DNA of 64,000 nucleotides from Mucilaginibacter sp. (GTDB taxonomy: Bacteria; Bacteroidota; Bacteroidia; Sphingobacteriales; Sphingobacteriaceae). The notes beneath the pieces are model-generated. The model was given only the letters and a program-made list of their open reading frames with translations, did no database searches and was not told where the DNA came from. Of the stretch, positions 10,522-16,131 are shown in pieces; the first letter of the stretch is position 1; the number at the start of each line of letters is the position of its first letter. The position numbers and the translations under genes are program-made. The DNA lies in NCBI GenBank assembly GCA_028288285.1, contig JAQBNZ010000156.1, forward strand, positions 1 through 64,000, in the 5' to 3' direction.

Positions 10522-10799
10522 CCCTCAGATGCAGAAATAAATAAAGCGTTACAATAACAATTAATTAGCGTACAAACTTCAGTAAAAACGCGTAATTACA
10601 TAAAGTTTATATGTCATGGTACAGTTAAATAATGTTAAAACTTGTATTTTTTTTAATACATAAAGGTCAGAAACTAAAATTTTGCTGGATTCTTGGGTGG
10701 GTAAGTTGGCAATTGGAAGGGTGCAAAGAGTGCGTGAGGAAGCGGAATGCTTCAATAGTTTTTAACGCAAAGATGCAACTGACTTGCTAATTTTTTTGA

Positions 10800-10841
10800 T
10801 ACCGCAAGCGTCCCGCTTGTGGATTTAGGACGGTAATAAAT
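10800..10841. repeat. REP-like intergenic repeat, copy 1 (left part only)
   Basis: taccgcaagcgtcccgcttgtggatttaggacggtaataaat, same core as at 11561 and 11945. Confidence 0.85.
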
Positions 10842-10990
10842 AGTGTCTTGTTGCAGTAGCGGTGCAATATTGCTTTTTCCATATTTACAACACTTTGTTT
10901 GTTCAATAAATGATGTTATAATACTATCTTGGCTTTTATCAAATTAATGCTTTACTTTTTTAATGATACTATACTTTTGCTGTAAATAAA

Positions 10991-11509
10991 ATGAAAAAAA
11001 CCTATTACCTGCTGTTATTTGCGCTGATGCTATCGGCAGCAGCTAAAGCCCAAACCGATTGGGTAACAAAAAACCTGGACGAAAAACTGTCGGTAAAATT
11101 CCCGGTCGAACCGGAAAAGGTGACCAAGAACGGCATTGATAGTTATACTGTCAAAGGAAAAGACAGTGTTGGATATAATGCTGCCGTGCTAGATTATAAA
11201 GTTGTAGCCAATTTAGATTCGGCCGCCTTAGCGCCGGTGAAGGATACCCAGCAATTTGCCGATCAAATTAGGATGGGTATAGCGTCAAAAAAGACAAACT
11301 ATACCTTTGGGGATGTCGTAATAGGCAAATGGAAAACATATACCACTTATAGTATTTCCGCGTCTGACAATATTAATAAAAACACGTTATTGATGCGAAT
11401 GATATTAATTGGCAGCAAAATGTACTCACTCTCGTGCCGGGTACCCGCTAACATGGTCACCAAAAATAACGAAGTGTTTTTAGGTTCGGTTGAACTAATG
11501 AAGAAATAA
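10991..11509 (+). CDS. hypothetical secreted protein
   Basis: Signal peptide MKKTYYLLLFALMLSAAAKAQ; continuous 172-aa ORF. Confidence 0.8.
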   Translation: MKKTYYLLLFALMLSAAAKAQTDWVTKNLDEKLSVKFPVEPEKVTKNGIDSYTVKGKDSVGYNAAVLDYKVVANLDSAALAPVKDTQQFADQIRMGIASKKTNYTFGDVVIGKWKTYTTYSISASDNINKNTLLMRMILIGSKMYSLSCRVPANMVTKNNEVFLGSVELMKK

Positions 11510-11554
11510 AAGTAGCCTCTGCCGTCATTGAGAAAAAAGAGCCAGGACACTAAC

Positions 11555-11643
11555 TTTGCTACCGCATACGTCCCGCTTGTGGATTTAGGACGGTAATAAA
11601 TGGATAGCTTACTAAGCAAGCGGACGCTTGCGGTAGTAGCAAA
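11555..11643. repeat. REP-like palindromic repeat, copy 2 (both arms)
   Basis: tttgctaccgcatacgtcccgcttgt...acaag-type arm answered by gcaagcggacgcttgcggtagtagcaaa; central ggatttaggacggtaataaatgg shared. Confidence 0.85.
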
Positions 11644-11657
11644 TCGTGCACATATAA

Positions 11658-11870
11658 CTAATTATGATCTTCAATTGCTTGTTTAATGGTTACAAACACA
11701 TCTTCATCAAGTGGTTCGCCGGATGTTTGTTCCCAATCTTTATTGTGTTGAATTTTGGCTATAAATTCCCCACCAAAAGCAATTACAAAATAATTTTCAA
11801 TAGGTATTACCTCAAAGCTATTCATGCCGCCTTTGTAAAAGGCCTGTACGTAAAAACTATCTGATTCCAT
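11658..11870 (-). CDS. hypothetical 70-aa protein
   Basis: Acidic, compact 70-aa ORF; the overlapping plus-strand ORF has a less protein-like composition. Confidence 0.6.
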   Translation of the reverse strand: MESDSFYVQAFYKGGMNSFEVIPIENYFVIAFGGEFIAKIQHNKDWEQTSGEPLDEDVFVTIKQAIEDHN

Positions 11871-11939
11871 ATTGTTAAGACAAATGTAACGGAACGTTTG
11901 TTTTTAAGATGGGGATATACCTTCTATCTACGCTTTGCC

Positions 11940-12040
11940 TTTGCTACCCCAAGCGTCCCGCTTGTGGATTTAGGACGGTAATAAATGGGCTGCTTATCTA
12001 CCAAGCATGCGGCCACAAGCGGGACGCTTACGGTAGCGGG
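11940..12040. repeat. REP-like palindromic repeat, copy 3 (both arms)
   Basis: tttgctaccccaagcgtcccgcttgtgg ... ccacaagcgggacgcttacggtagcgggg inverted arms with the shared core. Confidence 0.88.
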
Positions 12041-12045
12041 GCATT

Positions 12046-12207
12046 GGCGACGAGCATTTAAAATATCCAAATGTTTTGCATAGAAATGCTATCTTACATG
12101 GGCAAGATTACAATTATGGTTCGGAAAAAAATTCGTATAAAGCAATATCATTGTTTCAATTTGTAACGGAAATCGTTTCTGAAATAGTTGATGATAGTGC
12201 TGCTTGA
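12046..12207 (+). pseudogene. C-terminal remnant of a HEPN-like (R-x4-H) protein
   Basis: Open frame without an upstream start: ...VLHRNAILHGQDYNYGSEKNSYKAISLFQFVTEIVSEIVDDSAA*, containing RNAILHG. Confidence 0.6.
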
Positions 12208-12235
12208 TTGTAAATTTTCTCATATTTTATTATTA

Positions 12236-13048
12236 ATGACATCAAAATTAATACAACAAATAACTGTTAAAAGTATACCTAAATTAACTGTTACTGATAA
12301 TGTGGTAAGTAATGTTGTAGAGAAACAATTAGCTGTACCCAAATTTAAAGAACAGCAAAAAGAAAATGGTCGTAATATTGATCGAATTAAGACAAATAAA
12401 AACAAGCCTATTGTAGTACTAAATCCTATCGACAAATCTTTAATTTGTACAGTACCTATTATATTTCAGGGCAGATTACTAATCGCTGAATTCCCGAATT
12501 TATTAACCTTGTATCTACATAACGCTATAGAAAGCTACAACCATAGTTATGAGATTCTTAATGAAATAAATATAACGAAGGCGTATAAAAGCGGAGACGT
12601 CGTAGTTTTCAGTAATCAACAATTCTATAATTCTTATTTATTAAATCGAATTAATATTATATTCTATTTGTCTATCGCGTTAGAATTATTACTGAACTCC
12701 AAGATACCATTAGATTATGAATACAGGAAGAAAGATATAGTTCTAAATAGAAAAGAGATAGAAGAAAAACTTCCATTTAAAGAAAAACTTAAATTAGTTA
12801 ATAATTTGTTATCAGTTAACAAAAAAGGGATTAATATTCAGATGCTTAACACCCTGATTGAATTATATTCAATTAGATCAAAGCTGGTTCATCCAAAAAC
12901 TTCAGATTTCAAATTTAATAAAGATCATCCAATGGATGATATAGCACAAAGTTTTTCATATGAGATTATAAAATACATTAATTGTATTATAACAGTTATT
13001 AAAAAGTGGGAACCAGGACTTTTGTCTTTTGAAGATATCGCTAAATAA
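12236..13048 (+). CDS. hypothetical HEPN-like protein (ORF track start 12188; ATG at 12236 more plausible)
   Basis: Alpha-helical C-terminus LIELYSIRSKLVHPKTSDF with R-x4-H; 12188 start would overlap the remnant frame. Confidence 0.65.
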   Translation: MTSKLIQQITVKSIPKLTVTDNVVSNVVEKQLAVPKFKEQQKENGRNIDRIKTNKNKPIVVLNPIDKSLICTVPIIFQGRLLIAEFPNLLTLYLHNAIESYNHSYEILNEINITKAYKSGDVVVFSNQQFYNSYLLNRINIIFYLSIALELLLNSKIPLDYEYRKKDIVLNRKEIEEKLPFKEKLKLVNNLLSVNKKGINIQMLNTLIELYSIRSKLVHPKTSDFKFNKDHPMDDIAQSFSYEIIKYINCIITVIKKWEPGLLSFEDIAK

Positions 13049-13137
13049 TTCAATCTGTGAGAGCTATCACCGCATTATTTAGGGTGTTTACTCTCCATTT
13101 TTAAAAGACATGGCTTAACTATAATGCCCGGCAACAA

Positions 13138-13165
13138 GATTGCCACGCTATCGCTCGCAATGACA
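13138..13165. repeat. possible dispersed intergenic repeat (gattgccacgctatcgctcgcaatgaca)
   Basis: Resembles the GTCATTGCGAGCGATAGCGTGGCAATC-type repeat recalled from Sphingobacteriaceae genomes; only one copy in this window. Confidence 0.45.
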
Positions 13166-13191
13166 TTAGTTTTATGAACCGTGTTTGTTAA

Positions 13192-13341
13192 CTATGCGGC
13201 GGCAAGCAACTGCCTAACAAACGCTAAATTCTTTTTGCGTTGTTGTTCTGCCCTGTATTTTTGAAGGTCCTGATCTATGATCCTTTTCAATTCAATATCG
13301 AAAGCTTTTAAAAGAATGGCGGTATGGATAGAATTTTTCAT
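13192..13341 (-). CDS. 49-aa small protein, not in ORF track
   Basis: MKNSIHTAILLKAFDIELKRIIDQDLQKYRAEQQRKKNLAFVRQLLAAA*, read directly from the minus strand; charged helical composition. Confidence 0.5.
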   Translation of the reverse strand: MKNSIHTAILLKAFDIELKRIIDQDLQKYRAEQQRKKNLAFVRQLLAAA

Positions 13342-13553
13342 AAGTGAGCGTTTAGTTATGCACTAACTATACATTAATAACAATGCCAAAATAAAAACCG
13401 CATCAAACTTGCAAAAAAACGTCATAGATCCATATCGGGCGTATATTAAAATAGTCACCGTTTAGTTTGTGGAGGGTATTATATCCCCGATGATTATATG
13501 GATGATAAGCACAAGCCGGTATTGCCCAGTACTTCGCAATCCCCTCTTCTCCC

Positions 13554-14633
13554 CTAACCTAACAACCTGTTCACTGTTGCAAGGCCAATTTTTAGCTCGT
13601 TGCTAATGTAGCGGTAACTGTGGCCCTGTTGCTGTAGCTCAAGGGCTTGTTGCTTTAGTAATTTGCGGTCGCGGCGTTGTTGCAGGTGGTCGCTCTCCTG
13701 GGCGTAACCATCAAAAACATAGTGCAGGTCGTTCATTACCTTGGTAATATGGCAAATACAAACGTTTTGTTCGCCATATACTTTTTGGGTATTACGCTGT
13801 TTTATTTGCTTAAGGTAACGGCCGCCGGGTATGGTATGGCTCTCGCCGATGGCAAAGGCACTGTCGCAAAAATTGATAATCATTTTACTGCCCTGCAAAT
13901 CATTCACCGTAAGCGGTTGCGCAGCGCTACGCTTAGGTGTATGCGCCAAAGCCAATACAGATAGCTTGTACCTTGTTTTAAGCGCCTTTAAATGTTTCAT
14001 AAGCGGCAGTGCATCTTTGGCACTTTCGGTACCGTTGCGCATATAGGTAAGGTTATCAATAATAAGCACCTTGGCTTTGCTTTGTTCAATTGCGCGCTCA
14101 ACAGCGCTGGCCAGGTAATCGTTATAACTGTCATACAGTGCGGGGTTATCCGCCTCGGGGTTTATTTCGGCCCTGCTAAATGTTTTCCCAAACGGGAAGT
14201 TACCCCACTGACTATCAAAATAACGGGTTTGGAACTGCTTACTGCCCATCTCAAAATCAATATACAAAACCGGGGTTTGTGCATCCATTTGGTTAGCAAA
14301 CGGCTCCATACATGCACCCAGTGTTATATTATTGCCAATTTGTACCGCCAGTATAGATTTGCCCAGGTTGGTATCGGCAAACAAAACGCAAAGCTCTCCC
14401 TCAAACCAAAAATCGCCAAACAGTTTACGTGGCGCAGGCTTGCCGTACTCCTGCTCCATCCATTCGCTGGCGGGCTTTACGCGCAGCAGGTTAGTTTTAT
14501 TTTGGGTAAGGTATATATCAGGAGTTAAGCCGTATTTTTTTAAGCGCTGGTTACTACGGTGTACCTGGTTGCGGATATCGTTTATAATATCAGGACGCTG
14601 ACTTAAACGAATGTTCATTATTTCATTAGGCAT
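13554..14633 (-). CDS. AAA/RecA-like ATPase (RepA/AAA_25 type) with C-terminal helix-turn-helix
   Basis: Walker A-like FADTNLGKS, Walker B-like KVLIIDNLTYM, C-terminal QGHSYRYISNELKIGLATVNRLLG. Confidence 0.85.
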   Translation of the reverse strand: MPNEIMNIRLSQRPDIINDIRNQVHRSNQRLKKYGLTPDIYLTQNKTNLLRVKPASEWMEQEYGKPAPRKLFGDFWFEGELCVLFADTNLGKSILAVQIGNNITLGACMEPFANQMDAQTPVLYIDFEMGSKQFQTRYFDSQWGNFPFGKTFSRAEINPEADNPALYDSYNDYLASAVERAIEQSKAKVLIIDNLTYMRNGTESAKDALPLMKHLKALKTRYKLSVLALAHTPKRSAAQPLTVNDLQGSKMIINFCDSAFAIGESHTIPGGRYLKQIKQRNTQKVYGEQNVCICHITKVMNDLHYVFDGYAQESDHLQQRRDRKLLKQQALELQQQGHSYRYISNELKIGLATVNRLLG

Positions 14634-14647
14634 AGCTTATTCTATTT

Positions 14648-14661
14648 CTGTAAATATACAG
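14648..14661. promoter_or_regulatory. short palindrome immediately upstream of ATPase gene
   Basis: CTGTA-AATA-TACAG, 15 bp upstream of the start codon. Confidence 0.35.
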
Positions 14662-14716
14662 ATATTTCTTTATAAATACAAAGAATAAGATATAATTAGC
14701 TATAATCGGCGCAGGT

Positions 14717-14781
14717 GTTCCGGTTTTTGTTCCGCTACTGTTCCGTTTTGTTCCGCTTTTTGCGGAACGGAACAGCGGAAC
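14717..14781. repeat. GTTCCG direct/inverted repeat array
   Basis: GTTCCG at 14717, 14729, 14740, 14750; CGGAAC at 14763, 14768, 14776. Confidence 0.88.
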
Positions 14782-14829
14782 ACTCAGCTATGCAAGTTTC
14801 AGCTCAATCTTTCAATAATTTAGCATTAA

Positions 14830-16131
14830 CTATTTTCCAACCAGGTCGGCAGGGTTCATTTCGTTACTTAACAGCTGGCCAAACAATTCCCAGCGCTTTT
14901 CAGGGGTTTTAGCATTTCGTTCTATATGAGCCTTTACCAGATCCTGGCCATAGTTGTAATTGATAACATAACTACGGTATTTTTTAATAAAGCTGATGGA
15001 TTTTTCGGCAGTTTCATCATTCATCAAGCAATATTTTTTAAGCCATGTTAAAGCCTTATCGCGCGACATGGTTTCATTTATCAGTCCTCTTGCGGCATCA
15101 TTACGGGCGTAATTCAGTTTACCTTTAATGGCCAGCGCCTTAAAATATAGTGCTATACCGGTAGTATCTAAACCGGCAAGTGGCAGCAATACGTTTTTGG
15201 CAAATTTAACTTTCTCATCACCAGGGAAAGCAACCTCAATGCCGTAGTTGGCGCTTCCTTCTGCAATTAATGATTGTGGGCTAAACAATGGATAAAGTGA
15301 TACCTCAACATACCGCCTATCGTGGTAAAGCTTTTGCTCCAGTAGGGTATTATAAACATGGTGCCCCGGGTAACTTTCATGGCTGCCTACATCAATAGCA
15401 CGGTCAATAAAAATTTTTGTGTCGGTATTTATCTGCACCACGCTGGTGTAATTTCCTTTGTACCAATTATAACCGCTCCAAGGTTTATCGGTTACATATT
15501 CAAGTGAAAAGTTCTCTTTTGCAGGTAGTTTATAATAAGCAAGCGTTCGTTTACGGGCCTCGGCAATGGCGGCTTTCATTACCATGTCCAGCTTCTCTTT
15601 AGGAATAATAAAATGATTTGCCAATTTCTGGAACCTATCATTCACTTTACCTTTACCCGGCAAAAGGCTATCCAGTTTATCCACTTCGGCCTTATAGTGC
15701 TCCTCCGCAAAAACAGGCGCTGCCACACCAAATAAATCCTTTGATTCTTCATCGAATGAGCGGTATTCTTCTGAATAGATCCTGATGCGCCGGCCAAAGG
15801 CCAGCAGTTGGTTATACATCCAGTTAGCACGCATCCGGTTAGAATCAACATCGCCAGAACCGGCTACCACTTTCAAATCATTCATTAAGCTGTTTATTGA
15901 TGCCAGCAGGCTATCCTTAGGAAAAACTTCCCCGGCAGGTTTTGCAGGTTTTAGTGAATCCGGACCGTAATAGGCATCAACAAAATCTTTATCATACTGG
16001 CCAATGGTAAGGCCCAAAGTAACATAATCGCGGGCAAGTCCGTTAAGCTTTTTGGTTTCGGGGTTATCAGCAATATTTTGTTTACATGACAATACAAACA
16101 AGATGGGTATAAACAGCAATAATTTCTTCAT
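14830..16131 (-). CDS. DUF885-family putative metalloprotein/peptidase, lipoprotein
   Basis: Lipobox LFVLSC; HESYPGHHVYNTL motif characteristic of DUF885. Confidence 0.85.
   Translation of the reverse strand: MKKLLLFIPILFVLSCKQNIADNPETKKLNGLARDYVTLGLTIGQYDKDFVDAYYGPDSLKPAKPAGEVFPKDSLLASINSLMNDLKVVAGSGDVDSNRMRANWMYNQLLAFGRRIRIYSEEYRSFDEESKDLFGVAAPVFAEEHYKAEVDKLDSLLPGKGKVNDRFQKLANHFIIPKEKLDMVMKAAIAEARKRTLAYYKLPAKENFSLEYVTDKPWSGYNWYKGNYTSVVQINTDTKIFIDRAIDVGSHESYPGHHVYNTLLEQKLYHDRRYVEVSLYPLFSPQSLIAEGSANYGIEVAFPGDEKVKFAKNVLLPLAGLDTTGIALYFKALAIKGKLNYARNDAARGLINETMSRDKALTWLKKYCLMNDETAEKSISFIKKYRSYVINYNYGQDLVKAHIERNAKTPEKRWELFGQLLSNEMNPADLVGK

Follow-up and report, generated by a model that had tools for sequence, protein, structure and literature searches.

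Dispersed palindromic repeats are common in bacteria. The protein partner well described for them in the literature is the Y1 (RAYT) transposase. A 64,000-nucleotide stretch of Mucilaginibacter DNA (the whole of it is called here the window) raises the question of whether a quite different protein, a replication-like ATPase, might stand in such a partnership. Upstream of the gene for this ATPase lies a compact array of six-base repeats. Is the array a private fixture of the gene that it precedes, or is it one member of a family that the protein itself recognizes?

The analysis found a dispersed, genome-private family of arrays that is linked to the ATPase. Sequence comparison suggests a protein-matched repeat family of a new kind. 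At a probability of roughly 60%, the array would be a set of binding sites for the adjoining ATPase, multiplied into a dispersed repeat family private to the genome. The many natural pairs of ATPase and repeat unit would, of course, make specificity, spread, and function directly testable. Searches of the open-access literature found no description of such an ATPase-array system; PINSR, a 188-bp repeat of Prevotella, is a different thing (PMC4755523).

The array and its surroundings

The features discussed here, with their positions in the window, are as follows.

10689..14826, no strand assigned: block of array, ATPase gene, and three small ORFs, not present at the corresponding position of the sister genome RYN_305 (G134)
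13554..14633, minus strand: AAA_25 (RecA/DnaB_C-like) ATPase, 359 aa, homolog of the AAA ATPase of Tn4555
13560..13637, minus strand: C-terminal helix-turn-helix (HTH) of the ATPase (approximately residues 333-358, with recognition helix LATVNRLL), proposed to read the repeat unit
14648..14661, minus strand: perfect dyad CTGTA-AATA-TACAG (CTGTAAATATACAG) between the array and the ATPase start, kept in close homologs
14717..14781, minus strand (the sense of the genes): repeat array of seven GTTCCG/CGGAAC units, with the hairpin first and direct GGAAC repeats after it
14750..14773, no strand assigned: core hairpin GTTCCGCTTTTTGCGGAACGGAAC, the most constant portion across all copies
14830..16131, minus strand: 433-aa gene; 48 bp separate its stop codon from the hairpin side of the array

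The unit GTTCCG starts at 14717, 14729, 14740, and 14750, with spacings of 12, 11, and 10; the inverted unit CGGAAC starts at 14763, 14768, and 14776, the first two inverted copies having base 14768 in common. A preliminary description of the locus had given the same coordinates and spacings, and these are exact. The clustering exceeds chance. The window holds 22 GTTCCG/CGGAAC sites where 10.7 are expected, a number that none of 100 shuffles reaches, and 7 of the 22 are packed into the 65 bp of the array. The hairpin GTTCCGC-TTTTT-GCGGAAC that had been proposed for the center is likewise there, at 14750-14768, and an extra GGAAC (14769-14773) can pair with the GTTCC before it. The array strand folds with -38.4 kcal/mol, against -23.7 ± 3.1 in shuffles (z = -4.8).

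In the sense of the genes, the order is the stop codon of the 433-aa gene, 48 bp, the hairpin, the direct GGAAC repeats, 84 bp, and the ATPase start at 14633. We infer that the dyad at 14648-14661 is the probable promoter or operator of the ATPase gene. Given this separate, conserved dyad close to the start of the ATPase gene, the array itself is unlikely to be the core promoter.

The neighboring ATPase

The ATPase matches AAA_25 and, weakly, DnaB_C; it also matches replicative-helicase families in PHROG. The single protein had no match in the PDB, and a profile search there matched the HTH alone. HTH_23 is found at the C-terminus of 15 of 17 homologs. Within the genus, 100 of 150 genomes carry the ATPase; its distribution in the class is patchy (16 of 198 genomes, two of them Mucilaginibacter). 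Most of the Mucilaginibacter loci compared have no conserved neighbors. At four of them, a related gene comes after the ATPase; two of these genes were tested, and both match DUF6371/Zn_ribbon_16. In the window the ATPase is solitary, with no excisionase, integrase, DUF6371, or mobilization gene recognized near it. PADLOC returned no match.

A phage origin was considered and rejected. The ATPase has no relative in viral_contigs, and phage records give three distant matches, two of which are unannotated fecal scaffolds.

The same genome encodes a second ATPase of the family (G000:C141 14646-15698; L163, L198), with a GTGAAC array upstream that has only two weak further copies in the genome. In a longer ATPase subfamily (about 460-550 aa; L334-L353), a strongly conserved dyad, TGACAAAACA(G/C)TGTCAGCAC, precedes the start codon by some tens of bases and is probably an operator or promoter.

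Copies dispersed in the genome

A search of the genome, which is 76% complete, finds about 26 near-identical copies of the array; genome-wide copy counts here rest on such searches. The copies follow a design that can be written as [GTTCCG-N4-6]n plus a nearly constant hairpin. The common form has one to five GTTCCG units at a spacing of 10-12 bp, and in the copies read the last of these opens the near-constant hairpin GTTCCGCTTTTAGCGGAACGGAAC or a close variant. The length of the run varies, as seen in L013 and L019, which have similar flanks with unequal numbers of units.

By gene calls that are ORF-based only, 13 of the 26 sites are flanked by convergent genes, 6 by tandem genes running with the array, 2 by tandem genes running against it, and 1 by divergent genes. 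For three more, the stretch read includes a gene on just one side, and one copy overlaps a predicted ORF. Thus, 25 of the 26 are clear of predicted ORFs, giving the short palindrome in many intergenic copies that characterizes a REP. The copies also have a preferred orientation. On the hairpin side, 19 genes come within 130 bp of an array, and 17 of these face it with their stop codon; a stop codon within 25 bp is found on the hairpin side of 12 copies, versus 2 on the other side.

BLAST of the array against 40 relatives found a similar stretch in none of them. Outside its own genome, the exact hairpin pattern occurs only in two Mucilaginibacter MAGs, RYN_305 and RYN_307. A search of the genus for the hairpin gave 25 exact matches in the genome itself, with 2 and 1 in the genomes that match RYN_305 and RYN_307. 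Three more matches lack the full motif, one of them being a cousin array (L045) in genome G019.

Arrays beside ATPase homologs

The preliminary description had proposed looking for the same array at homologous genes. The flanks of 30 ATPase homologs, when read, often show the same design of hairpin and short direct repeats built from other units: GGAAC, GGGAC, GGTAC, GCTAC, GTGAAC, CGGAC, and GTACGA. Because homologs keep the design while they swap the unit, taking the absence of literal GTTCCG as the test would mislead.

A blind detector, covering both orientations and requiring at least 4 copies of a 6-mer with at least 3 G/C, was applied to the 500 bp before the ATPase gene and the 350 bp after it. 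It is positive at 15 of 30 loci in the first set, 7 of 11 in the class-wide set, 9 of 40 in the held-out set, and 2 of 20 in a last set. The background is 12 of 840 equally long stretches (1.4%), drawn from 400-kb samples of one ATPase-free and one ATPase-bearing genome, which are too noisy for comparing numbers of arrays. About half of the first set and most of the held-out set are thus negative. The last set belongs mostly to the longer ATPase subfamily, where arrays are fewer, shorter, or not visible. Where arrays are present, they lie upstream of solitary ATPases and downstream of those of the integrative-element type.

Thirteen ATPase-linked arrays were joined as one query and compared with the genomes that they come from. 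In each of the thirteen, the matches are almost confined to its own array and number 2 to 41, a count that takes in the copy beside the ATPase and everything up to E = 0.01. In ten genomes, the present one included, the unit linked to the ATPase has 11-41 dispersed occurrences. The largest numbers (11-41) are those of queried genomes with a solitary-type ATPase; the four with an ATPase-DUF6371-type pair have 2-9.

A pattern of three GGAAC units, sought across the genus, occurs at 10 or more sites in 13 genomes, all of which are ATPase-positive (Fisher 0.004). The present genome has 34 such sites, and G019, the richest in GGAAC arrays, has 130; matches that overlap inside an array are counted separately. 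Five ATPase-negative genomes (G156, G006, G116, G060, and G138) keep 5-8 GGAAC matches; those in G060 are low-complexity repeats that resemble coding sequence.

Repeat unit and recognition helix

At the loci compared, the unit changes together with the recognition helix of the C-terminal HTH. The helix motif QK[VA][DS]R accompanies CGGAC arrays at 5 of 6 loci in the first set, against 1 of 35, and at 7 of 8 held-out loci, against 1 of 32 (Fisher p = 3e-6). Units were called by fixed motifs and a stricter detector in place of a noisy simple 5-mer caller.

Among pairs of ATPases with 30-60% identity in the core, drawn from every locus to which a unit could be assigned, HTH similarity is 0.46 for those with the same unit versus 0.31, a difference reached in 0 of 2000 shuffles; the assignments were made partly by eye, and the comparison does not fully remove clade structure. 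Below 45% core identity, where there are nine same-unit pairs, the difference vanishes. Individual cases are instructive. The ATPase at L186 has a core close to that of a GTACGA ATPase, yet it has a GTGAAC array and the helix LGTVNKYL, like the distant L221, an apparent convergence. L085 and L095, a close pair, have different units (GGGAC/GGTAC) and different recognition helices. G123 combines GGGAC with KIGSSTVGR, and G131 combines GGTAC with KISASTVAR. The L186 and L085/L095 cases are hard to explain by descent.

The preliminary description had suggested that the HTH of the ATPase binds the repeats. Arrays beside homologs far above background, together with the covariation of unit and HTH, give this suggestion strong, though indirect, support; the binding itself is a prediction from sequence.

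Tn4555 and a probable mobile-element origin

The Bacteroides mobilizable transposon Tn4555 carries, after an excisionase gene, a homologous ATPase (38% identity), followed directly by DUF6371 and a mobilization protein. Its array, GTCCC three times and then GGGAC three times, overlaps the 3' end of the ATPase gene. Placing of the array at loci in other families is similar. The locus in the window has the same pairing of a homologous AAA ATPase, bearing a C-terminal HTH, with short inverted units beside it; in Tn4555 the units are of 5 bp. Tn4555 differs in being a full element, with excisionase, integrase, DUF6371, and mobilization genes and one array, behind the ATPase. Here, the ATPase is solitary, the array precedes the gene, and about 26 copies are dispersed.

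The position of the inverted GTCCC/GGGAC array inside the coding end of the ATPase gene (L252 860-1110, L254 4850-5080) means that the C-terminal tail of the protein is partly encoded by the array.

How excised integrative and mobilizable elements (IMEs) are maintained is largely unexplored (PMC5704250). It is plausible that the array acts as a replication origin in the Tn4555-type ATPase-DUF6371 module; if so, this module of Bacteroides elements would gain a candidate origin. The dispersed family would probably descend from the replication origin of a mobile element. A relic origin, one of the options in the preliminary description, is plausible for the array in the window, since the Tn4555 homolog has an array of this kind in a helicase-like/DUF6371 module.

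The sister genome

RYN_305 lacks the 4.1-kb block between a sigma factor gene and the 433-aa gene, the latter being 97% identical to its counterpart in the window. G061, a more distant genome, carries the ATPase about 5 kb downstream of the 433-aa gene, which argues for loss of the block in RYN_305 rather than gain in the present genome. Eight array sites were found in RYN_305 by their flanks alone: 1 intact, 3 degenerate, 2 truncated, and 2 absent. A ninth site gave one flank only, and RYN_305 retains a second intact copy of the array. The state of these sites fits decay after loss of the ATPase, in a comparison where the copies of the present genome were ascertained as intact and RYN_305 is 64% complete.

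A possible mechanism

The HTH may read one repeat unit per ATPase subunit. A run of units at roughly helical spacing would, in turn, load an ATPase oligomer. In integrative elements, the loaded ATPase might start plasmid-like replication, with the array as oriV. In Mucilaginibacter, the ATPase would have lost its partners, and its site would have been copied to intergenic places, preferentially behind stop codons. Such sites could persist as a REP-like family that has no transposase and is still bound by the ATPase. As for how copies move, our guess is capture of single-stranded array DNA linked to replication, rather than cut-and-paste transposition.

A more ambitious version of this proposal is tentative, and the odds are against its holding in full. 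It would be a bacterial repeat-protein system of a new class, in which a replication-type AAA ATPase and its dispersed iterons co-diverge through the HTH; the arrays, tens of them in each genome, would be private chromosomal loading sites, spread and homogenized by the ATPase rather than by a transposase.

Plasmid iteron origins have short repeats, about one helical turn apart, beside a replication-type gene. The array resembles them in its direct units, 10-12 bp apart, beside a DnaB_C-like ATPase, and in its proposed role of loading an initiator. It differs in its shorter units, its inverted arrangement, and its many chromosomal copies. BOX or STAR elements likewise combine a constant module with a variable number of internal units and are dispersed between genes, as the present family is. 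We know of no linked, co-varying DNA-binding protein for these, in contrast to the present family.

Alternative explanations

Other explanations of the array must, of course, be weighed. One holds that these are chromosomal sites that benefit the cell, at which the ATPase serves replication restart, chromosome organization, or the ending of transcripts, in the manner of other chromosomal systems of a protein and its sites. The copies are homogeneous and oriented, with the hairpin against the stop codon, and most of the orthologous sites are degraded in RYN_305, a genome without the ATPase at this locus. That decay may, however, be an effect of ascertainment in an incomplete genome. Further, one unit gives way to another between close species, and the number of copies ranges from a few to more than 100. 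A selfish or neutral family fits this turnover and range better, and a system of cellular sites is unlikely.

A second explanation, in which ordinary REP-type repeats are moved by a Y1 (RAYT) transposase and the neighboring ATPase is incidental, is improbable. REPs are short palindromic copies between genes, mostly at convergent or tandem gene ends (PMC3733652), and the present copies are much the same; as in REPtrons, one gene is flanked by the same repeat. Genes for Y1_Tnp do exist in the genome. However, among the Y1_Tnp loci of this (76% complete) genome and three related genomes, none is flanked by the array discussed here. The intact Y1_Tnp gene at L036 has a different array, restricted to its own locus, which led to rejection of RAYT as the driver. 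The present family also has direct units beside its hairpin and, in the copies read, lacks the constant GTAG or CGTC tag beside the stem; GTAG occurs only in the spacer of a few copies. Its unit follows the HTH of the ATPase, which speaks against the RAYT reading.

The chance is slimmer that the array acts as RNA, as a terminator or a stabilizing 3' hairpin. Read in gene sense, the hairpin does come immediately after stop codons, and its fold is strong. In the copies read, however, the T-run that marks an intrinsic terminator follows the hairpin on neither strand; repeats or unique flank come instead. The run of repeats past the hairpin would have no role in a terminator, and Rfam has no relevant family for the array, giving one weak chance match.

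Least probable is an operator of the ATPase gene and nothing more. The preliminary description had raised an operator as one option, and the array does precede the ATPase start, with the conserved dyad between. The other copies, about 25, are however located elsewhere, mostly after stop codons rather than at promoters and only one between divergent genes, and at Tn4555-like loci the array is behind the ATPase. Autoregulation is refuted as the full explanation and may at most be an additional role.

Other repeats

The intact, RAYT-like Y1_Tnp gene at L036 (811-1380; G000:C246, about 11.88-12.46 kb) lies beside a BIME-like tandem array of units of about 69 bp, with hairpins ATGTTCCGATGGAACAT and TTGTTCCGGAGGAACA. 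This array has a GTTCC/GGAAC core in common with the ATPase-linked array and is confined to this one place in the genome. The genus also has many copies of dispersed repeats of other types, CTTCGACAAGCTCAGGATGAC and GATGCTTCACTCCGTTCAGCATGACA (G138 matches; L042 3330-3460). Many intergenic runs of short direct or inverted units, among them ATTTGAAGATTTGA, TTGTGAG, CTAATGA, and CTATGGAC, were seen in Mucilaginibacter (L256-L295, from the G060 and G146 samples, and L094, L096, L097, and L101), and some of these adjoin ATPase genes.
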